Positions 9,628 through 64,000 of a DNA stretch of 64,000 bases are shown piece by piece. Source of the DNA: Chloranthus sessilifolius (taxonomy: Eukaryota > Streptophyta > Magnoliopsida > Chloranthales > Chloranthaceae); NCBI GenBank assembly GCA_021018995.1, contig CM037585.1:126756831-126820830 (forward strand), given 5' to 3'. The notes below the pieces were generated by a model, which saw nothing but the letters and a program-made list of their open reading frames with translations, ran no database searches and was not told the DNA's origin. A program made the position numbers and the translations under genes. How positions within the stretch are numbered: position 1 is the stretch's first letter; each line of letters opens with the position of its first letter.

Positions 9628-12600
9628 TTAGTATTCATCATCTTCCATGACATCAGCAACCAATGGCGATGCTAAAGTATCTGCATTAATTCTTGCCTCA
9701 AATACTAATGGATCTTCATAAGCATCTACATCTCGAGTCAATCTCTTTGGAGCATCTAAGACAACATACCAATCGGCTCTAGTTTGGTCCTTGCAATAGA
9801 AGACTTGGGTGGCTTGGGAGGCAAGAATAAACGTCATCTTCATGTGAACTCCTCATAAGCCTCCCAAGATTAACAAAAATTAAGCTTTGTTTACGGATCA
9901 ACAACACATCCATTTGTTTTATCTTCTATCGTACCCAATCACATGAGAAGACATTTCTTTAAAGTTACCATAATTAGGTTCAAGTATTTGTTTGAGGATG
10001 CCATAATAAGTGACTTCTTCTTCCACAAGGTTCTTATCTTTGACACTAGCCCTAAAATTAGTTAAAGCCTTCATGGAGACTGCTTGTACTCGTTTCAATT
10101 CGATTACAAAAAAGATATCCATTAACCACATAAGAATTATACGATATGGCTTTGAAATGCGGACCATCAGCAAGACTCTTCAAGGTAGAAGACTCTTCTT
10201 TTTCTAATTGTTGTCTTAACCAAGGAATGTAGTTGCCCCTCAGATGTTTATCACATGACTTGTGGCCTTGGAGGTTAGATTGGTACTTCCTATAAATGTT
10301 GAGTGTTAATTAGATCAAGTATTTCAATATTAATTGAGGAAAAATAATGACGATATTTATAAATATTACTTACATCTCCCATTCAACATTTTGGAGAATG
10401 TGTGAGAATCCATTTACGGCGCTTTTGGAATTGCAAGTTTTGAAGGTAATAGACTTTTCCTTTTTATCGAGAGGAAACCATGTGTAACATCATAATCCAT
10501 GAACATTATATCTCTCGCTTATGCCCTCCTGCATTATCATTTGGCATATACTCCATCTGATTACCTCATGCATTCTTCCATTAGATATTGCTCGTAATAG
10601 ACCCCTCTGGATAAGTCTGATTTTTTACATAATGCTTGTAAGTCTTCATCATCCTATACAATTTTCTTCAATTAGATATCAATAATACTAGTAAAAAGAA
10701 ATACTTTAAAAGTCATATTATGAAGGTTTACCTTTCGAATGGATACATCCATCGATATCGAACAGGACCACATGTTAGCACCTCATCCGCCAAGTGAACA
10801 ACAAGGTGTATCATAGAAACAAAAAATGAAGGCGGGAAGTACTTTTCAAACACGCACAGTGCTTCGATCATGTGTCTCCTCATGTTTATAAGCTCAACCC
10901 GATCTATAACTTTGGAACATAGGACATTAAAAAATATTGACATTTGTCGGATAGCTGCTCTCAATGGCTTTTCTTTCTTGAATGCATGCATGAACAATAC
11001 GCGTAGTAGTTGTTGCATGAGGATATGATAGTCATGTGACTTGAGCCTTTCGATTGAAAATCCTCCAAACTTACGTTATACTTCCAATTTTACCTTTGTA
11101 TCCAATGGGAACTTTCAAATTATACAATGTTTCACAAATTAGTTTTCTTTCATCTCGTGATAAGACAAATGGAGCTTTAGGGCAATACACCTTGTCATTT
11201 TTCTGCACAATCCATAAATTTTTCTTTATCTTCATTTCTTTAAGATCATATCGGGCCTCAATTCCATCCTTACTTTTACCTTTTGTATCCATAATTGTTG
11301 CAATTAAATTTTTCGTAACATTCTTTTCCACGTGCATTACATCCAAATTATGACGAACGGGAAGATCCTACATTTATAAAGTAAAAAATTAGTATTCAAA
11401 CAAAGTTTATTGGAGATCACATAATAAAATGAAAGGAAAATTTTATCACCTTCCAATATGGTAAGTCAAATAGGATTGATCGCTTTGACCATGCATAACT
11501 CTCTTCATTCGTGGGCTTTTTCCTCTTCTTTCCTGCTGCCTTTCCGAACGTGGTCTGAATTGTTTCCATTTTACTTAAAACTTCTGAACCGCTCATACGG
11601 CGTGGATGTTTCCTATGTTCTTCCTTACCATTAAATTGGGATTTCTGAGTTCTGAAAGGATGATTTAAATCTGTAAGGAACTTTCGGTGGCCCATGTAAG
11701 CAAATTTCTTTCCGTGATATAACCATACGGAGTCAACCTCTTCACTACAAATAGGACAACCATATCTTCCTGCTGTCCTACAACCCGAAAGATGACCATA
11801 TGCTGGAAAATCATGTATAGCCCATAATAAAATTCCTTTCATGTTAAACCTAGTTTTTGTATAGGAATCATATGTTGTTGCTCCAGTGGACCACAATTCA
11901 TTTAATTCTACAAGCAATGGCTGCAAGTAAACATCAATGTCATGTCCAGGACCATTGGGCCCGGAAATCAATATGCTCAACATTGTAAACTCCTTGCGCA
12001 TGCACAATGATGGAGGGAGATTGTAGGGAACAATCATAACAGGCCAACAACTATAAGAGTTATTCTTATTGCCAAAAGGATTGAATCCATCTGTGGCAAG
12101 TCCTAGACGAACATTACGTTTCTCTAAACCAAACTCTTTCCACTGAACATTAATTGATTTCCAACAAGAAGAATCTACGGGATGCCGCATGTGACTGTCA
12201 TTTGCAACTGAGTTTGCATGCCATGTCATTTTCTCTGCAATCCACGGTACACTATACATTCTTTGTAGCCTCGGAATTAATGGAAAGTATCTTAATTTCT
12301 TCCATGGCAACGGCTTAGCCCTCGGCTTTGAAGCATTTGGTGGCTTCCATCTGCTCGTACCACACGTAGGACAAGTATCCTTATTTGCATGATCTCTCCA
12401 ATATAATATGCAATCATTGGGGCATGCATGAATAATCTCATATTTCATACGTAAAAACTTGATCAACTTTTTCGCATTGTATGTGGTATCCGCAAAGTAT
12501 TTTCTTGGGAAGTATGTTTTTTATCATTTTCAACAGCCCTGTGAAGCTTTCATCAGACCACTGATGCCTAGCTTTCATGCTCAACAACTCAATCGTGACT

Positions 12601-13109
12601 GACAATTTTCTGTGCTCATTTTTACATGACGGATACAAAGGTTCTAATGCACATTCCATCAAGTTACTATACCCCGCATCATCATGTAAATCATGTGGAC
12701 GTTGCTCGTCATCTTCATCATAAGCATCATTTAAGCAAGCATCTAAATCTTCAGTACGAACACCTCCGAATGTGTTATTCAACATATCTTCCATTCTTGG
12801 AAACCTATCTTCGTTTGGGTTAGAAGTCGATGTACTAGTCCCCAAATTGGTATGACTATTAGAAAATGATTCTCCATGGTGCTTCCATATCGTGTAAGAC
12901 TTATCTATACCATCACAAAATAAATGTTCCATAATAATCACGAGGCTATGCTTTTTAAGATTTCGACAGTTGACACAAGGACAACAACACCAATCAGGAT
13001 CTTCTACATTTTCTTTTGCGAATTTGATAAATGAATGAAGACCTTCGATATATTCCACAGTTGTATGATTTGCCGTCATCCACTCTTTACTTGGGATTGT
13101 TGAAGACAT
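9628..13109 (-). pseudogene. CACTA transposase TNP2/TNPD-like, broken
   Basis: This would be the cut-and-paste transposase of the element. The start ATG is at 13,109 (MSSTIPSKEW). The order of family domains is complete. A Transpos_assoc zinc region comes first (CCCCPCVNC, then MEHLFCDGI, then HHGESF; 13,109-12,600). The Transposase_21 core follows (12,466-11,450), with IHACPNDCILYW, CPTCGTSRWK, DGFNPFGN, GPGHDIDVYLQPL and GCPIC. A GT-AG intron of about 80 bp (near 11,448-11,368) leads into NLDVMHVEKNV. DUF4218 follows (11,018-10,728; FEKYFPPSFF and RWMYPFER), then DUF4216 (10,173-9,628; TYYGILKQI and DWYVVLDAPKR). The frame changes near 12,500 and near 11,070 while the family match continues in the next frame. 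Stops occur after the exon starting near 10,660, and the frame changes again near 10,130. The copy is therefore a pseudogene. Confidence 0.92.
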
Positions 13110-17059: not shown

Positions 17060-20000
17060 GAGCCCGAGCCAAAAGGGGCCATTTTCAAAATCTATTCCTC
17101 TCCCCCTCTCCAAATCGAAACAGAACCTCTTCCTAGGGTTCCTTTGAGTTGCCTTAAACCTCGTTCTATCGCTGGAGTTTGCTCCCGCCGTTCAAATACA
17201 CGCTCTACGCAGGATCAAGGATCCATTTTTCTTGAAAGTAATCAATGCTTCCTCATTCCTTTTTTTTTTTTTTTTTCTTGAAATAATTTACAATGTGGTT
17301 AGAATTTTTTCTTTATTAGATGATGAACGGGTGATTTTTTTTGTAAGTATGATTATTTATGACCCATTTGATTTCTTCCGTGTGCATTGGCCTCGATTTT
17401 GAGCAAAAATATGATTTTTTTGTGATGTCTTACTCTTTTTCTTCATTTGTTAATGTGATTAGGGGCCTCTCTTTTTTTCTTCTTTCTTGTGTGGATCTAG
17501 ATGACTCTTTTTTTTTGTGTAATGCAAGATGATTGTGATGATGATTTTTTTTGTGTTTGCTTTTACATGTTTATTGTGTATGCATATATATATTTTTATT
17601 ATTTTCGTTTGTTTGGAAAAGGAGGACTCTTCTTTTTTTGTTTATACATGTTTTGCTTTTCTTCTTTTTTACTTTTATTTTTTTGTATGTTTATTGTGTA
17701 TGCATGTATATATATAAATAAACATATATGTTTTTTTTTTTTTGTTTGTTGGAAAAAAGAAAGACTCTCTTTTTTTTTTGGTGTATGTTTATACATGTTT
17801 TGTCCCTTTTTTTTTTTGAATTTTTGTTACATAAATGCACACCCTTTTTTTTTTTTTTTTTCTTCTTCTTTTTTGGATTTTTGTTACATAAATGTACACA
17901 CACTCTTCTTTTGTTTGTTTTCTTTTTTGGATTTTTGGTTACATAAATGTACACACATTTTTTTTGTTTGTTTTCTTTTTTTCTTGGTTCTTTATTATTA
18001 TTATTATATATATTTTTTTGCTTTCTCTTTTTTGAAATGTGGGGGGTTTTGGGCCTCACCCTCTTTTTTGAAATGAGCAGGGCATACTTACCTTCTTTTA
18101 GCTTGCGATAATCAATTTCTCGCTACTGACATGTTTTGATAATGTTGCTTGTTTCTATCTCAGGATGTCAAATGAGGAAGAGCATGGGCAAGAGGAAGGG
18201 CAAGAGGAGGGACTGGAGGTGGTCTACGGTCCACAGGGGAAGCAGCTTTTGGTAGTGCAGTGCTTTTCCCAGCCTTGGTACGAAATGCAGGGCGAGGCAA
18301 CCCGTACTGGTCTGCTCGATCAATAGTACACCCATATCTCGAATTTTAGGATTGCTAGCAAGGCAATCAAATAAGTTTTATTTTACCACATTGTCCTTTC
18401 TTTGTGCAAGCTTGCTTTACCTGCAGGATCTGACACCTCTTTATCTCGATGCAGGACCTGGCACCCATTATGTTCCGTGGAGGTTGGCTTGACCTCCAAC
18501 GCCTTTACCGCTATCTCCCTCAAGTGGTGAAGTTTCTTCTTACTCAGGCCGGCTTCGGAGATTTCCTTTCGTCCCTAGCCATGAGGGGTGACTCGGCTTA
18601 TGTGAAGGCCCTGATTGAACATTTCTGGCTTGAGACCATGACCTTCCACATGGCGATAGCTATTACCCCTGTCGATTGGTCGATGATTATGAGGATAAGG
18701 ATTGGGGGCACGCCGGTGACCAACCTTCCCGTACGAAGCCGGTATGAGATGGTGCAATTAATTGAGAACTACCCCTCTGCTCAAAACAAGCATGGCTCTG
18801 AGGTTAAATTATCTTGGCTGGTCGATTTGTTTGGTGAGCACGAGTTGGTGGATCTGGGCCAGCTGGATGCAGATATCTTCCTTGAGCCCGCAAGTGCTCT
18901 AATGTTGGGTCGCATCTCACTCCTCTTCATTTTAGGCAAGGCCCTTTTTGCAAATGCCAACGAAGGTCGGGTTTCATTTTCCTTGCTCAGCCTTATGGGA
19001 AATTGGGATGGCGTGCATCGGAATGACTGGGGTGGGGCCAGATATGCCGTGCTGATATCTAGCCTAGCCCAAGCCTCAGTTGGGAGTACGACTTCTGTTA
19101 TCGGTTTCTGGCCTGTGATTGAGGTAATCCCTGACTCTCCCACTTTCCTTAGTTCATTGGCTAGTCATTCATCTTGCATCTGACACATCTTCTACCTTGA
19201 TTGCTACTTCTTTTTTTAGATCTGGGGGTACTTGCATTTCCAATCTAGCCGCCCACTCCTTTTCTTCGATGTTTATACGTATCCGCTCATGAGTAATTGG
19301 CACAGGAATTGCCGGAGGGATGTCGGCATGAAGCATTTAGAGATGGGCCTGAGGTTCCAATTTGACTTGCTGATCCTGGAGCAGGTATGGTTATTTCTCT
19401 CTTTTCTTTCTCAGCATTTCATTTTATGCTACCAATTTGGCTGATGTGACATTTTTCTGCCTGGGCAGGTCATCTATGACCCTTACGTTGGTTCTCCCTT
19501 CTGGGATCGAGCCGCCGTGGGTCCGTCCCGCTTCTTTGTTGACCTCCGCGTCGTTTTCTTCTACGGGGCCTAGGCCATGGCATATTATCTGGGAGAGAGA
19601 GAGTGGTACATAAGTACCGAGATCAATTTGCCATGCCGCAGGCTCCTTCGACGGACGTTATGGCTCCTAAGGGTACTATTGAGGAGCTTTCGGCTAGGTT
19701 TCTCCATCATGGGGTCCCCATTGATGATCTTCTCATGCCACGTTTTGTACTTGGTGCCAACTTCCTGGCCTTTGGTGGCCCGCGATCTCAGGTAGCTCCT
19801 CTTTTTTGCAAGCTTCCAATGGTTCTGCTTTAATTTTTACCTCTATTGATTGAAACCCTACTTCTTTTCATAGTTCAATTGGGAAGATGATTCTAACGAC
19901 GATGATGCGGCAGCGGAAGATCCTACTGAGGCCACGGATGCTGGTCCTTCAGACCCCTTTGGTGTAGGTGCTTCAGGTAGTTCTACAGCTGAGGTTCAGG

Positions 20001-52895: not shown

Positions 52896-55358
52896 TGTAA
52901 TAACCCAAAAAATCACGTCAAACGAGGACCTCGGGATCCGTGCCCGTTTGGTCTTAGGTTTGACCATGAGATAGTTCATTGATGAACTTAAGATGAGATG
53001 AGCGGATGTGAGGTGTGAACCAGTGTAGAAGAGTGGAGAGATAGAGAGGTGTGTAGAGTGACATACACCGATGTGTGTGTATGTGCTCCACACCGAGAAA
53101 AGAGATAAGATAAAAGGGTTAAAAACCCTAATTTTCATATTTTGGTTGTTGAGAGGAGTAAAGAAGAGAGAGAGAGAGAGAGAGAGGAGTAAAGGAGCTA
53201 GTGAGGAGTTATTGCAAGTTGTTGGAAGGGGATTTCTTGCGATCAAAGCGCCGGATTCGACGCGGGGGATCTGTTCAGACAAAAGCTGGAAACCCTAACC
53301 TTCCAACCCTACATTTAAATCAAATTGAGGTTGATTTAAGGTGAGATTCTTGTAAATAAATGGTGTAGATTTATAGAATAAATTATGGTTAAAATGGGTG
53401 GAAATTGTAGGAATATTGCTTAGAAAATAGCGAGAAAAGATTGGGGAAGAAACGACCAAAGAAGAATTTGAACACAGGATTCGACTAATCGAAATTGGGA
53501 TTCGATTAATCGAAATTCCCGAAGTTGAAAAGTCGAGATAACCACGAGTTCGACTAATCGAAATGAAATTCGATTAGTCGACTTTGAATTTCGACTAGTC
53601 GAGTTGGGTGTCGACTAGTCATTGAACCTCGGTGAGGAGTAAAAATGGGTTAAGAAAAATCGACCCGATCGAAATTGGATTTCAGTCGAGTAAGGATTTC
53701 GACTAGTCGAATTGGACTCGATTAGTCGATTTTGTATGTTCAATTAATTAAGGGAAAATTGACAAGAATAGGATTTCGACTAATCGATTTTGAGAATCGA
53801 TTAATCGAAATTGGACCTCGACTAATCGATTTTGAGAATCGACTAGTCGAGTTGGATTTCGACTAGTCGAACCAGGAGCTCGACTAGTCGACTGACTTAG
53901 TTTCGTTGACTTTTGATTCTTACTTCAAGACTCTAGGGGGGTCTTGAGACTTATTCATTACATCTTTTGTGATGTTTCGAATGTGTTTAATGGTATCATA
54001 GGTAATGCGTGTGAAAGTGGGCACAAGGAGCCGAGTGGGACCTTGATGCATTGAATCGATAGAGACCTAAGGTAGGGAACACCTTGAACATGTACTTTAT
54101 TTTACAAGAGCATGTATGTAGTGATATAGATTTCTATTCAAATATTTTCACTGCTTAAAGAATTGTGAAAAGTGTGGGTGTGTGTGACATTCATAAGAGT
54201 AAACTATTGAGCCATCCCCAGGGGATGAAGAAGTAAAGAGATAAGAGCATCAGGTGTGATGCAAGTAAATGGATACATCCCAGGGATGTATCCAAGGATT
54301 GAATCATGTTTGATAGGGCCTAACTGATATAAGATAGCACACTTACACGGTGAATAACTATATGTAAGGCACCGATATTTTTGTTATTTGAGGTTTGATA
54401 GGTTACCCCACCGACGTGGCGGGATATCCACGACTGACACGGCAGGATATCCGTGACCGATACGGCGGCGAAACCGTAGGCCAGTGCGGAGGCTTATCCG
54501 CACATAGTAAGCACACCCCAGGGGTGTTGATTGAGACAAGTGAAACCCCGCCACCAATCCCCAGGGGAAAGGGGCTTGGGTACTATATGGTATTCCCAGG
54601 GAATACATTAAAACTGTCTATATAGATGACGATGAAGGGTATCTCATCGGGGCTCGATGCTATATTGCTCGGGGATTACTTAAGTTGAAAGTTTAAGTTT
54701 TGCTTTAGGCCTTTTCAGCATTATTCATGAGTAAATGAAAACATAAGTAATCAACAGTAAAACGAATGCTTTCAAACCGTTTCATTAACAATTGCATAGA
54801 TACATCATGCATGGCATATCATAGAATATATGTGAGTTATAATTTATATGTTCAACAGTGTTTGTTCCCTATTGAGCTAGGATGTAGCTCACCCTATAGA
54901 CTATACGTCGCAGGTCCACTACTAGCGACTGCGGCTTGAGACGCCGATCCCGTGATCGGACCTTGCGGTGACGAGTTGGAGCCACCTCCAGAGGACTTCT
55001 TCTAGAGGACTCCGCTGTGCCACTTTGAGGGATTTTTACAGAGAGTTTTGTACGGCTTGGTATGTCAAGCCTTGATTTTGCGAAAACCATGTATATAAGG
55101 TTTTGGATTATTCTTTTGGGACGAACCATCCGTGATGAATTCTATCATCGATGGTTCGGATCGGTTCTCCATTCATGTAGGGGCATGAGGGTAGAACTGT
55201 CCTTTGGAAAGTTAATTAATATAGATTTAAATTCCGAAATTTCATTATAGTACTTTTTCATGCTGGATATACCAGTGTTCCGTGTTTAGCTAAGGGCACG
55301 GTCAAGATGATCGTGCTGATGGCACGGGTTTCGGGGTGCCGAAATCCGGGCTGTCACA
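52896..55358 (+). mobile_element. Solo LTR of the E3 family, 2,463 bp
   Basis: It starts TGTAATAACCC, ends CCGGGCTGTCACA and is flanked on both sides by TGGCA (52,891-52,895 and 55,359-55,363), a perfect 5-bp target-site repeat. No internal region is present, so it is a solo LTR left after recombination. It matches the LTR at 59,006-61,685 in the opposite orientation (about 80-85 percent by eye). It sits inside the RT region of T1. It contains a GA microsatellite (53,166-53,188), a leader-like region with a donor site near 53,340 and the palindrome array at 53,478-53,892. Confidence 0.95.
53478..53892. repeat. Palindrome array in solo LTR (TCGACTAGTCGA type)
   Basis: About fourteen copies of a 12-bp palindrome-like site, TCGA-NNNN-TCGA, with centre CTAG, CTAA, TTAG or TTAA, at spacings of roughly 15-40 bp. 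The outer TCGA arms are kept while the centre varies. Confidence 0.92.
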
Positions 55359-59005: not shown

Positions 59006-61685
59006 TGTGACAGCCCGGATTTTGGCACCCCGAAACCCGTGCCATCAGCACGATCATCTTGACCGTGCCCCTTAGCTAAGCACGGAACACTGGTATATCA
59101 AGCATTGCAATAAAATAATAAACGAAACTGCAGAATTTGAATCTATATTAATTAACTCTCCAAAAGACAGTTCTACCCTCATGCCTCTACATGAATGGAG
59201 AACCGATCCGAACCATCGATGATAGCAATCATCACGGATGGTTCGCCCCAAAAGAATAATCCCATCTATATATATATACATGGTTTAAACAGAATCAAGG
59301 CTTGACATACCAAGCCGTACAAAAACTCTCTCCAAAATCCCTCAAAGTGGCACAACGGAGTCCTCTAGAAGAAGTCCTCTGGAGGTGGCTCCAACTCTTC
59401 ACCGGCCGCAAGGTCCGACTCGCCGGGATCAGCGTCTCCTGAAGCCTCGGCAGCTGCTAGTAGTGGACCTGCGACGTATAGTCTATAGGGTGAGCTACAT
59501 CCTAGCTCAATAGGGAACAAACACGGTTGAACATATAAATTATAACTCATGATATGCCATGCATGAAGTATCTATGCAATTGTTAATGAAACAGTTAAAA
59601 AGCATTTCGTTTTACTGTTGATTACTTGTATTTTCATTTACTCATGAATGATGCTGAAAAGGCCTAAAGCAAAACTTAAACTTTCAAGTAATCCCGAGCA
59701 ATATAGCATCGAGCCCATGAGATACCCATCATCGCCATCTATATGGATGTTTTAACCGTATTCCACAGGAATACCAATAGTACCAAGCCCCTTTCCCACG
59801 GGATTGGTGGCGTTTCACTTGTCTTAATCAACACCACAGGATGTGCTTACTATGTGGATAAGCCTCATGGCCTACGGTTTTCGCGCCGTGGTCACGGATA
59901 TCTGCCGTGTCGATGTGGATATCCCGCCACGTCGTGGGGTACCCTATCAAACCTCAAATAACAAAATATTGCCTTACATATAGTTATTCACCGTGTAAAT
60001 GTGCTATCTTATATCGTTAGGCCTATCAAACATGATTCAATCCTTGGATACATCCAGGATGTATCCATTTACTACATCACACCTGATGCTCTCATCTCTT
60101 TACTTCTTCATCCCCTGGGGATGGCTTATTAGAATTTCTCTTATGGATGTCATACGCACACACACTTTTCACAATTCTTAAGCAATTAAACATTTGAATG
60201 GAAATCTATATCACTACATACATGCTCTTGTAAAATAAAGTACATGTTCAAGGTGTTCCCTACCTCAAGTCTTCATTTGATCAATGCATCAAGGTCCCAC
60301 GTGGCTCCTTGTGCATCAGTTCACACGTACCACCTATGGTACCACATAACAGGTGAAACACATCACAAAGGATGCAATAAAGAAGGTATAAGACCCTCCA
60401 AGAATTTTAAAGTCAAACCCAAAAGTCAACATAATTTATCTCAGTCGATTAATCGAATTCCAAAATCGATTAATCGAACCGGATTCGATCAATCGATTTC
60501 CAAAATCGATTAATCGAAGGTCAATATCGATTAATCGAAGTAATTTTGATTAATCGAAATTCTCTGTTTCACAAGGTCGATCCTCAGTTCGAACAGTCGA
60601 GCTTTCATTCGATTAATCGAATCCAATTTCGATTAATCGAAATTCTCCTTTTCACAAAGTCGATCCTCAGTTCGAACAGTCGAGCTTTCATTCAATTAAT
60701 CGAATCCAATTTCGATTAATCGAAATTCTCCTTTTCGCAAAGTCGATCCTCAGTTCGAACAGTCGAGTTTTCATTCGATTAATCGAATCCAATTTTGATT
60801 AATCGAAATTCTTCTTTTCGCAAAGTCGACTCGCCTCGAATAAATGAGTTTATCGATCCCAAATCGATTAATCGAAAACTAAAATCGATTAATCAATCCC
60901 ATTTCCATTAGTCGATTTTCCTCAATCATTTCCTCCAACCCACAGGGTCCACGGAGGTTCTCGATCGATTAATCGATCCCCAAATCGATTAATCGAAATC
61001 CAAATCGATTAATCAAATCAAATTCGATTAATCAAAATCGAATCTCGACCCTTCAACTTCCAGCCAATTTTGATTAATCGAAACCCAATTTGATTAATCG
61101 AAATTGTCGGTCAACCTTCAGCTATTCTTCCCAATCTTCTTCCATACTTTTCCTCTATTTTTTTCTAAGCCATTATCCTATGATTTAACCCACATTCAAT
61201 CACAACTTAACCCCTATAATCTATGCATTTTATTTACAAAAATTTTACCTTGAATAGATCTCAAGTTGATTTCAATCAAGTGGTTGGAAGGCTAGGGTTT
61301 CCAGCTTTGGCTCTAACAGATCCAAATCGCGTTGAATCCGGCTTTTATCTCTTGAATCCCCCCTCCAATTAGTTGCAATAACTCCTCTCTTACTTTTCTC
61401 TCTCTCTCTCTCTCTTCTTTACTCTCCTTCAACAACCAAAATACACCTCTAGGGTTATTAAACCCTTTTATCCCTTTTCTCACTTGTGTGTGTTGAGCAC
61501 ATACACCGCGATAGGTGTATGCGACTTCACATTTACAACACACACCACATAGACATTAAGTTTATCACATCTCATCCGTTCATCACACCTCATGCTAACT
61601 ATTGGACTTCCATTTGGTCAAACCTATGACCGATCGGGCATGGATCCCGAGGTCATAGTTTAGCGTGATTTTTTGGGCTATTACA
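59006..61685 (-). repeat. 3' LTR of E3, about 2.7 kb
   Basis: On the minus strand it starts TGTAATAGCCC and ends CCGGGCTGTCACA, the same family as the solo LTR. TGCGA on the left is the expected target repeat. Because a polypurine tract follows on the right, this is the 3' LTR. It includes the palindrome array at 60,443-61,103 and a TC microsatellite near 61,396-61,416. Confidence 0.92.
60443..61103. repeat. Palindrome array in E3 LTR (TCGATTAATCGA)
   Basis: About 22 copies of the 12-bp palindrome TCGATTAATCGA or one-base variants within 660 bp. Part of it (60,573-60,830) is organised as three 83-bp tandem units that also carry gtcgatcctcagttcgaaca. Confidence 0.95.
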
Positions 61686-61700
61686 TCCTCCCCACCTTGG
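61686..61700 (-). other. Polypurine tract of E3
   Basis: The minus strand reads CCAAGGTGGGGAGGA directly before the LTR start TGTAATAG. Confidence 0.88.
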
Positions 61701-62082: not shown

Positions 62083-63525
62083 TCATGAGGCGGATGTAGT
62101 GGTAGAGGGAACCGCGTCTGCAGTGGTGGGAGGGCAGACGCGTCCTCTGTGGAAGGCCGCGCGTCCAGCGGGCCACTCCCCCTCCTCGGCGAGGTAGCGG
62201 TGGGAGTCCGGGTAGATGTAGCGGAGGGTGTGGAACATCAAGAAGTCCATCCTCCGGTTCATCCGCTCGTTGTTGGCCTCCATGCGAGCCAACACGTCCT
62301 CGATGGTAGGACCGGATGGAGCGGCGCGCCGGCGGTAGGATGAGGTGGGTGTCGAAAGCGCGGAGTGGGCAGGTGGTGTCGGTGAGGCTGTGGTGTGGGA
62401 GGGAACCCTCTCCACAGATGGCTCTGCGAGAATAGGGTGTGCCCCACCCACGGGTGGGTCATGCTGAGGTGGTGGGGGTGGTGGCGGTGCTACTGCTGCT
62501 GCTGCTGCTGGGGCGGGAGCGGGACCCGGAGCTGGTAGGGTTCGCTTGAGAAGGTTGTAGCTACGGGTCCATGAAGACTTCGTAAACGTCTTCACACGAT
62601 CCGTAGCCCTCACCTCGTGAGGTGAGATGGTGTAGGAGGGCTCGTCGGAGTAGCACTCCAACATGCTCGATATAAGGCGAGCATAGGGCATCTTTTCTTT
62701 GGGCCTCATGTTGCCCTTCATTAACTTCCCCTTGATGTACTTCATCCCCTCTAGGATGACCATTGTGGCGTTGAACCACCGGCCACAGAAGGCCGCATAA
62801 AGTGCATGTTGCACTTTGTCCACGCGCTCGGTGTTGTGGCGCATCGGGTAGAGGTTGCACTTGATTATGGAATCAAGCATCCACATGTAGGGTGGAAGGT
62901 CAACTCTCTTAATGGAGGATCCTGACCCCTTCTTCCCATTGGTCATACGGGTCATGACCTCCTCGAAACGGGGTTCCTCCTCAAAGGGTGGGAAAAGAGT
63001 GGTCTCCGGGGTGAAATCGAGGTAACACTCGAGTACCTCATGGATGTGGCGACGAGTGATCGTATAGAGACGACCCTCAATCTTGGTTATAATACAATCG
63101 TCAGTAGGGCCATCGGTTAGCCCTTGGTAAAAGAGTCTAACCAATCTAGGGTAGTAAGAACCCCGGATTGGTTTGAGAAGGTTGCCGAGTCCGGCGTTGG
63201 TGAGGTAATTTCGAGCCCATTGGGTCTCGCCCGGTAAATCGGGATTGGTGAAAAGGGTAGGGTCTATGATATATTCGACCTCAAAGGTCTTTGCCGTCCA
63301 CCATTCATTTGGTTGTTCAACATTGGTGGGTGGTGGTGGCATGGGGGTGGGCTCGCGGGAAGACTCGCGCGTAGACTCGCTCGTCGAACCGGAGGTGGTC
63401 TCCGATGCCGACGGTGATGGAGTCCTCACCGGCGATGGGGTAGGTGGTGGTGGCGCGGCGTTCTTACGCCGAACCGAGAGTTTAGAAGTCGCCTTCTTTG
63501 AAGATAAACGGGTTTTAGGCGGCAT
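62083..63525 (-). CDS. E3 accessory protein, 480 residues, plant transposon-protein-like
   Basis: A single open frame of 480 codons on the minus strand, in the same sense as the element. It starts at ATG 63,525 (MPPKTRLSSKKATSKLSVRR, basic). Residues about 25-65 are Ser/Pro-rich. Residues about 70-305 form a folded domain (NEWWTAKTFEVEYI, YYPRLVRLFYQGL, EGRLYTITRRHIHEVLE, RWFNATMVILEGMKYIKGK). This resembles the putative plant transposon protein domain seen in accessory frames of many plant LTR elements; the match is from memory. A Pro/Ala-rich linker with poly-Ala and poly-Pro follows, then a short helix (DVLARMEANNERMNRRMDF) likely to form a coiled coil. There is no protease, RT or integrase motif. 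Function unknown. It looks whole, unlike its surroundings. Confidence 0.8.
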   Translation of the reverse strand: MPPKTRLSSKKATSKLSVRRKNAAPPPPTPSPVRTPSPSASETTSGSTSESTRESSREPTPMPPPPTNVEQPNEWWTAKTFEVEYIIDPTLFTNPDLPGETQWARNYLTNAGLGNLLKPIRGSYYPRLVRLFYQGLTDGPTDDCIITKIEGRLYTITRRHIHEVLECYLDFTPETTLFPPFEEEPRFEEVMTRMTNGKKGSGSSIKRVDLPPYMWMLDSIIKCNLYPMRHNTERVDKVQHALYAAFCGRWFNATMVILEGMKYIKGKLMKGNMRPKEKMPYARLISSMLECYSDEPSYTISPHEVRATDRVKTFTKSSWTRSYNLLKRTLPAPGPAPAPAAAAAVAPPPPPPPQHDPPVGGAHPILAEPSVERVPSHTTASPTPPAHSALSTPTSSYRRRAAPSGPTIEDVLARMEANNERMNRRMDFLMFHTLRYIYPDSHRYLAEEGEWPAGRAAFHRGRVCPPTTADAVPSTTTSAS

Positions 63526-63752: not shown

Positions 63753-63765
63753 CTTATATATATAG
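63753..63765 (-). promoter_or_regulatory. TATA box of the E3 accessory gene
   Basis: The minus strand reads CTATATATATAAG about 230 bp before the ATG at 63,525, at a normal plant core-promoter position. The palindrome array begins only about 8 bp further upstream. Confidence 0.65.
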
Positions 63766-63772
63766 CCCACGG

Positions 63773-63995
63773 CTCGATTAATCGAAATTCAGAATCGTTT
63801 AATCGAGATTCAAAACTAGGTTAAGCCGCGTAAAATCGATTAATCGATTTCCCAAATCGATTAATCGAAAGTCATATTCGATTAATCGAAATCATTTCGA
63901 TTAATCGAAATCATTTCGATTAATCGAAATCGTATCTAATTAAAATTTTAAATTTTTAAGCTCACTGGCGCGAGCTAGTCGATTAATCGAAATCC
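63773..63995. repeat. Palindrome array upstream of the E3 accessory promoter
   Basis: About nine copies of TCGATTAATCGA-type sites in 220 bp, three of them in direct 22-bp succession near 63,868-63,925. The array lies directly upstream of the TATA box and may continue past the window's right edge. Confidence 0.92.
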
Positions 63996-64000
63996 ATTTC

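Follow-up and report, generated by a model that had tools for sequence, protein, structure and literature searches.

Why would a retrotransposon carry arrays of one palindrome in two places, in its LTR and directly upstream of the TATA box of its own accessory gene? The question is raised by a stretch of 64,000 nucleotides of Chloranthus sessilifolius DNA (the window), in which the initial annotation had suspected a self-recognition loop, with one element-coded or host protein binding both arrays. The element concerned is a Ty3/gypsy LTR retrotransposon (Table 1), with an LTR pair of 92.5% identity, the target-site duplication TCGCA, and RT, RNase H and integrase in pol (RVT_1, RT_RNaseH and Integrase_H2C2 matches in L009, which holds the pol of the window element). 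As judged by eye, pol ends at ~64583; array, TATA run, accessory ORF (aORF) and 3' LTR follow in that order. The element is probably a chromovirus (Tekay): a neighbouring relative has a Chromo domain (window:50499-51257; 2.6e-9), and the window element itself has a chromodomain-like C-terminus, recognised by eye only. Adjoining its 5' LTR are two 216-bp tandem copies (L009:8476-8906; 93.5% identical), within which three TCGCTCGAGCGA palindromes lie at L009:8680-8895, with no link to an aORF.

Table 1. Features of the element and of the window in which it lies (positions in window coordinates unless a contig is named).
Feature	Position	Strand	Remarks
Window	CM037585.1 (C2):126756831-126820830		2.17-Gb plant genome
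3' LTR	59006..61685	minus	2.68-kb LTR
Candidate late LTR TATA box	59267..59278	minus	TATATATATATA, downstream of the LTR array; putative function
LTR array	60445..61101	minus	in 3' LTR
Candidate early LTR TATA-like sequence	61464..61472	minus	GATAAAAGG, upstream of the LTR array; putative function
Polypurine tract	61686..61698	minus	AAGGTGGGGAGGA, directly before 3' LTR; assigned by position and composition
aORF	62083..63525	minus	480 codons, sense of pol, PF20167-like
TATA run of aORF promoter	63755..63764	minus	nearest palindrome ends 9 bp upstream
Upstream array of aORF	63774..64000 in the window	minus	runs on to ~64366 in L009
5' LTR	start at 72316, outside the window	minus	minus-strand element

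The palindrome, TCGATTAATCGA, was found at 45 sites in the whole window when up to two mismatches were allowed, against 3.35 on average, and at most 7, in 100 dinucleotide shuffles. Genome-wide, 241,617 exact copies compare with 55 of a reversed control, in which the same letters are read backwards without complementing. Shuffles and reversed controls rule out chance or a simple satellite as the origin of the array, and its existence as described is confirmed. The count of about nine sites in 63773-63995 needed correction, as this interval holds eight sites at ≤1 mismatch, seven of them exact (63774, 63836, 63857, 63878, 63897, 63916 and 63979) and one, at 63795, with a single mismatch. The full upstream array, which reaches past the window edge, has 21 sites at ≤1 mismatch.

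To describe the sites, we aligned those of 16 elements and of the window's 5' LTR that had ≤1 mismatch to any of four core variants. Two core positions reached 1.07-1.25 bits and the remaining ten motif columns at least 1.65; part of the conservation in the motif columns follows from choosing the sites by their match, and the contrast is provided by the flanks, which stayed below 0.6 bits in 29 of 32 columns around the upstream array and 25 of 32 around the LTR array. Most sites follow each other at 19-22 bp, roughly two helical turns (upstream, 191 of 276 distances; in the LTR, 204 of 266; counting those <70 bp; the elements are related and the distances therefore not independent). Lesser peaks lie near 40-42, 54-56 and 63 bp upstream and near 50 and 63 bp in the LTR.

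The distance between palindrome and TATA box is equally regular. For the window element, the initial annotation had given a gap of some 8 bp, and this holds to within a base: on the minus strand, nine bases (GCCGTGGGC) separate the end of the last palindrome, at 63774, from the start of the TATA run, at 63764. A gap of 8 or 9 bp between the last palindrome (≤1 mismatch) and the TATA box is shared by 16 of 21 ORF promoters. The remaining five comprise E1, with a gap of 21 bp, and four promoters without a pattern-matched TATA box within 45 bp, namely C2 and C11_B, which have an altered TATA sequence at 9 bp, the second ORF of L027 and the ORF of L032. The gap of 8-9 bp recurs with four palindromes (TCGATTAATCGA, TCGACTAGTCGA, TCAATCGATTGA and CTCGCGCGAG); where the TATA box is that of a probable LTR, the gap is 12 bp in L032 and 28 bp in L027. 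Genome-wide, the half-site TAATCGA lies 6-15 bp before the TATA core TATAAGATTGGGG 193 times, against 0 in the control, and the core on its own occurs 250 times, against 87 reversed. A 25-letter promoter stretch is present in 176 copies genome-wide. Among the matches listed, 90 of 97 promoter copies have the half-site 6-15 bp before the TATA core, the 97 being those of 100 listed copies that fall within the stretch also covered by the TAATCGA matches; one of the seven without a listed half-site is E1, whose array was read directly.

Whether other family members keep both arrays had been left as a check by the initial annotation. Ten further elements were selected by aORF match alone, after which the stretches expected to hold arrays were inspected, and both arrays were present in all ten. 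Seven of them have a TTAA core in both arrays; the other three belong to subfamily B (copies with 92-97% identity to the query L036:1827-2468) and have, again in both arrays, mostly CTAG or its half-forms as the core. The share of C/G at the two core positions correlates between upstream and LTR array with r = 0.98 over 16 elements, a value as high being reached in 0 of 20,000 permutations. The 16 consist of the ten aORF-chosen elements, the window element, L030, L014_15, L023 and the L034-L036 tandem pair, which has an LTR in common. Because they are related, the correlation stands for at least one coordinated core change and not for 16 independent ones, and the change between TTAA and CTAG may have been one event on the tree. 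Including L024, L027, L032 and L016_17, both arrays occur in 20 of the 24 aORF-bearing loci examined; in L024, a 57/45% relative, they are decayed in both places. Exact TCGACTAGTCGA, the CTAG form, occurs 5,483 times genome-wide, against 29 reversed.

L034-L036 consists of two tandem copies of one element in the order LTR-inside-LTR-inside-LTR, with a period of ~10.2 kb. The copies are 90-91% identical and have a common LTR, so they are not independent, and their reading as two subfamilies was ruled out. Small clusters in L021 and L022 include the core TGCA (TCGATGCATCGA), possibly a further variant of the palindrome.

The two arrays of an element are not simply copies of each other, in agreement with the initial annotation. 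In the TTAA class, upstream and LTR arrays are no more alike within an element (64.1 bits, n = 11) than between elements (63.7 bits, n = 110; p = 0.56), which rules out for this class that the aORF array is a duplicate of the LTR array. In the CTAG class, the likeness is nominally 47.3 bits within (n = 5) and 45.2 bits between elements (n = 20). Protection of motif CpGs linked to methylation was considered and discarded. In three LTR pairs, CpG decay affected 9 of 113 positions inside motifs against 41 of 204 (p = 0.004), but non-CpG motif columns likewise showed fewer changes (4 of 486 against 227 of 6,398; p = 0.0003). The lower decay of the motif probably reflects alignment and selection bias in repeats.

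Other palindromes accompany other aORF lineages. Exact copies of TCAATCGATTGA, ACGGACGTCCGT and CTCGCGCGAG number 64,441, 9,483 and 5,967 genome-wide, compared with 79, 14 and 205 reversed, and when 20 block-shuffled copies of the window (base composition kept per 500-bp block, dinucleotides not kept) were searched for clustered palindromes, 0 clusters resulted. Six arbitrary 10-kb stretches (L023-L028) contained exact-palindrome clusters in three cases (L023, L026 and L027) and decayed ones in L024. L027 has an ORF fragment with 34% identity to the window aORF over 56 residues and no Pfam match; 11 TCAATCGATTGA sites precede the TATA box of this fragment, six a second ORF and three the TATA box of a probable LTR. 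L032 encodes a PF20167 ORF (67.1 bits) directly preceded by eight ACGGACGTCCGT sites, with four more directly before the TATA box of a probable LTR, of which one edge was seen. L031 has a nearly identical ORF next to a copia-type pol, which makes L032 probably copia-type. The weakest case of matched palindromes is L016_17, whose aORF is 28-37% identical to that of the window: two CTCGCGCGAG sites, both exact, precede its TATA box, and four more, one of them exact and three with a single mismatch, lie 650-800 bp into the presumed LTR.

The pairing of arrays and aORFs has exceptions. The initial annotation had named aORFs lacking an upstream array as evidence against its proposal, and two were found, neither of which appears intact. 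L012_13 has LTR arrays and none upstream of the aORF; its RNase H lies ~410 bp from the aORF, against ~2,170 bp in the window, and integrase and array therefore appear to have been deleted. In L031, the 5' side is cut off. No array was found in the 451 and 331 bases read upstream of two divergent PF20167 loci, L058 and L059. More weight than the aORF loci without an upstream array is carried by the gypsy element L026 (L026:6930-10000), where pol is followed at once by polypurine tract and LTR start, with no aORF, and the probable LTR contains a TCAATCGATTGA array (eight copies of the central 10-mer). This counts against a strict pairing of array and aORF; L026 could live off the protein of another element, or could point to a host factor. 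Clusters of CGCTCGAGCG, TATCGATCGATA, CGATACGTATCG, TCGATATCGA and CAAAATTTTG, which have no known aORF nearby, count against a reading in which the aORF protein is the binder. L018, L019, L020 and L037, with arrays and neither RT nor aORF, are probably solo LTRs or fragments. As a separate observation, CGCTCGAGCG occurs three times in L011, with no link to an aORF.

The accessory gene itself is open over its 480 codons without a stop, as first described. Its product matches PF20167 (Transposase_32) with 36.4 bits (E 6.2e-09), a score below the curated cut-off of 45 bits, for which reason we call it PF20167-like only. No other Pfam domain, PF04195 included, and no known DNA-binding domain was found in it at E up to 1. 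The aORF is under purifying selection in one comparison, that of the window copy with L030 (dN 0.032, dS 0.257, dN/dS ~0.12). A genome search with the aORF gave 58,203 first-look candidates, and 79 of the best 89, those that were scored, are without an internal stop. A single-sequence structure model of the protein was unusable (mean pLDDT 39.8), and a PDB sequence search returned only two chance-level matches (E 0.18). Towards the C-terminus, hydrophobic residues fill 0.64 (window ORF) and 0.69 (L032 ORF) of the heptad a/d positions, against 0.39 and 0.36 overall, taking the best of seven phases; this may be a weak hint of a coiled coil.

In the LTR, the relation of array and transcription start is less clear than the initial annotation, which placed the array downstream of the likely start, had assumed. 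Two candidate TATA boxes flank the array, and the array may thus lie downstream or upstream of the start. Both are present in 9 of 9 aligned LTR copies, the early one as a TATA-like GATAAAA ahead of the array (near LTR position 214) and the late one as a TATATA-like box beyond it (near position 2409). Between the early candidate and the array lie a GA-rich leader and a possible splice donor; at window 61230-61260 (minus strand) the leader-like stretch ends in CAAG|GTAAAA, just before the array. This sequence could be a 5' splice site, in which case the LTR array would be intronic. The LTR arrays of L027 and L032 are followed by a TATA box. That of the window element is far from both candidates, which counts against the explanation that we favour.

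That explanation, to which we give a probability of roughly 55%, is that the promoters of LTR and aORF are under one trans-acting protein, most likely a homodimer of the aORF product, which reads a family-specific palindrome in phased arrays. It is based on the arrays, their geometry, the palindrome core matched to the aORF subfamily and the purifying selection on the aORF in one comparison. The palindromic form suggests a dimer, the spacing of two turns suggests binding on one face of the DNA, and the fixed TATA distance suggests that the initiation complex is either contacted or blocked. A palindrome that tracks the aORF lineage and matches in both places points to the element's own protein. 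The aORF protein would then bind the palindrome of its own family as a homodimer. Bound 9 bp ahead of the TATA box, it would influence the transcription of its own gene, and bound to the LTR array, it would influence the genomic transcript. By analogy with VANC or foamy-virus Tas, a positive role, in activation or anti-silencing, seems most likely. For the self-recognition loop of the initial annotation, paired arrays, the joint core difference, lineage-specific palindromes and the TATA gap amount to strong circumstantial support; binding, dimerisation and the sign of the effect are what we infer. The pairing in ten of ten relatives, the CTAG subfamily, the other palindromes with distant aORFs and the recurring TATA gap go beyond that annotation.

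A host transcription factor could instead bind the palindromes at both promoters, leaving the aORF with a different job. The LTR array of L026, an element without aORF, favours such a factor, as does the occurrence of TCAATCGATTGA in both L026 and L027, apparently elements of different kinds. However, one factor would not explain why the two places are filled, from family to family, by at least three unrelated palindromes, nor why the core differs jointly in both arrays of one subfamily, and we consider this explanation unlikely. Somewhat more doubtful still is that the aORF protein sits beside the TATA box as an autorepressor and limits its own expression and that of the element. The fixed gap of 8-9 bp fits steric blocking as well as it fits activation, but a simple operator would need fewer than the ~20 sites that both promoters carry in these very abundant families, and neither candidate TATA box of the window element is near its LTR array. 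That the arrays are neutral tandem repeats arisen by slippage and recombination, with no binding protein, is very improbable: the array is the least alike stretch of the LTR alignment, Retand elements commonly have tandem arrays whose function is unknown, according to the relevant sections of PMC11963269, and the high motif conservation owes something to choosing sites at ≤1 mismatch, but the 8-9 bp TATA gap recurs with different palindromes, the 12-mer recurs while its spacers vary, and array likeness within elements is not above that between elements.

Recognition by the element's own protein may extend beyond this family. Tentatively, and at somewhat less than even odds, we propose that several plant LTR retrotransposon lineages (Tekay-like, Athila/Tat-like gypsy-type and one probable copia-type) have private regulons. 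Each family would possess a dimeric DNA-binding protein of PF20167-like type and a palindrome of its own, the latter located in the LTR and also, in most cases, 8-9 bp upstream of the aORF TATA box. A change in one would go with a change in the other, giving at least five codes and ~327,000 exact sites in this genome. The paired palindromes and the fixed geometry lead to one prediction, that an aORF protein binds the palindrome of its own family and not that of a sister family. If this is true, self-recognition of the VANC kind extends to class I elements, the aORF proteins are a naturally diversified family of sequence-specific DNA binders, and a large plant genome holds hundreds of thousands of element-owned regulatory sites.

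The function of accessory ORFs in plant LTR retrotransposons is treated as an open question in the passages concerned (PMC7264820; PMC11963269). A close parallel is VANC, the anti-silencing proteins of VANDAL Mu-like transposons in Arabidopsis. As their relevant sections describe it (PMC5735166; PMC10398659), an element-coded protein is likewise combined with arrays of a short family-specific motif in non-coding parts of the element, and motif variants differ between subfamilies (C-type and T-type), as here. In contrast, VANDALs are Mu-like DNA transposons and the window element is an LTR retrotransposon, the nine-mer YAGTATTAY (the VANC21 motif) lacks palindromic symmetry and is arrayed in a single orientation (same sections of PMC5735166 and PMC10398659), and VANC has DUF1985/DUF287, whereas the window aORF matches only PF20167 in Pfam. 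With regard to anti-silencing, the likeness is one of sequence arrangement.

In foamy viruses, the tas gene lies near the 3' LTR and has its own internal promoter. The window element resembles this in its cis arrangement, with a gene near the 3' LTR and a putative internal promoter; foamy viruses are animal retroviruses, and the comparison is by arrangement, with no homology claimed. The passage concerned treats the transactivator Tas with LTR and internal promoter, and family-specific palindrome arrays are not part of that passage (PMC8670036).

Among plant elements, Retand has antisense TRP28 ORFs and tandem arrays, the ORF product being predicted to bind DNA and proposed as a transcription regulator (PMC11963269, relevant sections). 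As in the window element, the accessory ORF lies between pol and 3' LTR, with tandem arrays in the same region. Unlike the PF20167-like aORF in sense orientation described here, the Retand ORF is antisense with PF04195, and its LTRs measure 315-1,194 bp, against 2.68 kb; a palindrome common to the LTR is not described in those sections (PMC11963269). In sunflower, Athila has a 3' aORF with Transposase_32 (PF20167) and Tekay has conserved 5' aORFs, and the discussion parallels VANDAL (PMC11728184, relevant passages). The window element resembles Athila in its PF20167-like aORF on the 3' side and Tekay in having a conserved aORF, but differs from Tekay, whose aORF is 5' and of another kind; palindrome arrays go unmentioned in these passages (PMC11728184). 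Searches with TCGATTAATCGA, all five palindromes and part-forms yielded no plant or transposon paper by title, which is weak evidence, as subscription literature lay mostly outside the search. In one paper on PF20167 ('Transposase 32'), the passages concerned name no binding motif. For palindromic LTR motifs and additional ORFs, Vicient 2025 was nearest among the matches listed, and among those listed for Athila, internal promoters and anti-silencing, no title concerned paired palindromes.

The window contains further mobile sequences. On the plus strand, a solo LTR of the CTAG-type family (52896-55358; flanking duplication TGGCA), with a TCGACTAGTCGA array at 53481-53891, is inserted within the RT of a minus-strand gypsy pol. 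ORFs with Transposase_21 (tnp2) and transposase-associated domains at 11417-13109 belong to what we take to be a CACTA-type DNA transposon, and an ORF at 18449-19183 contains a plant mobile domain (PF10536, 39.9 bits).
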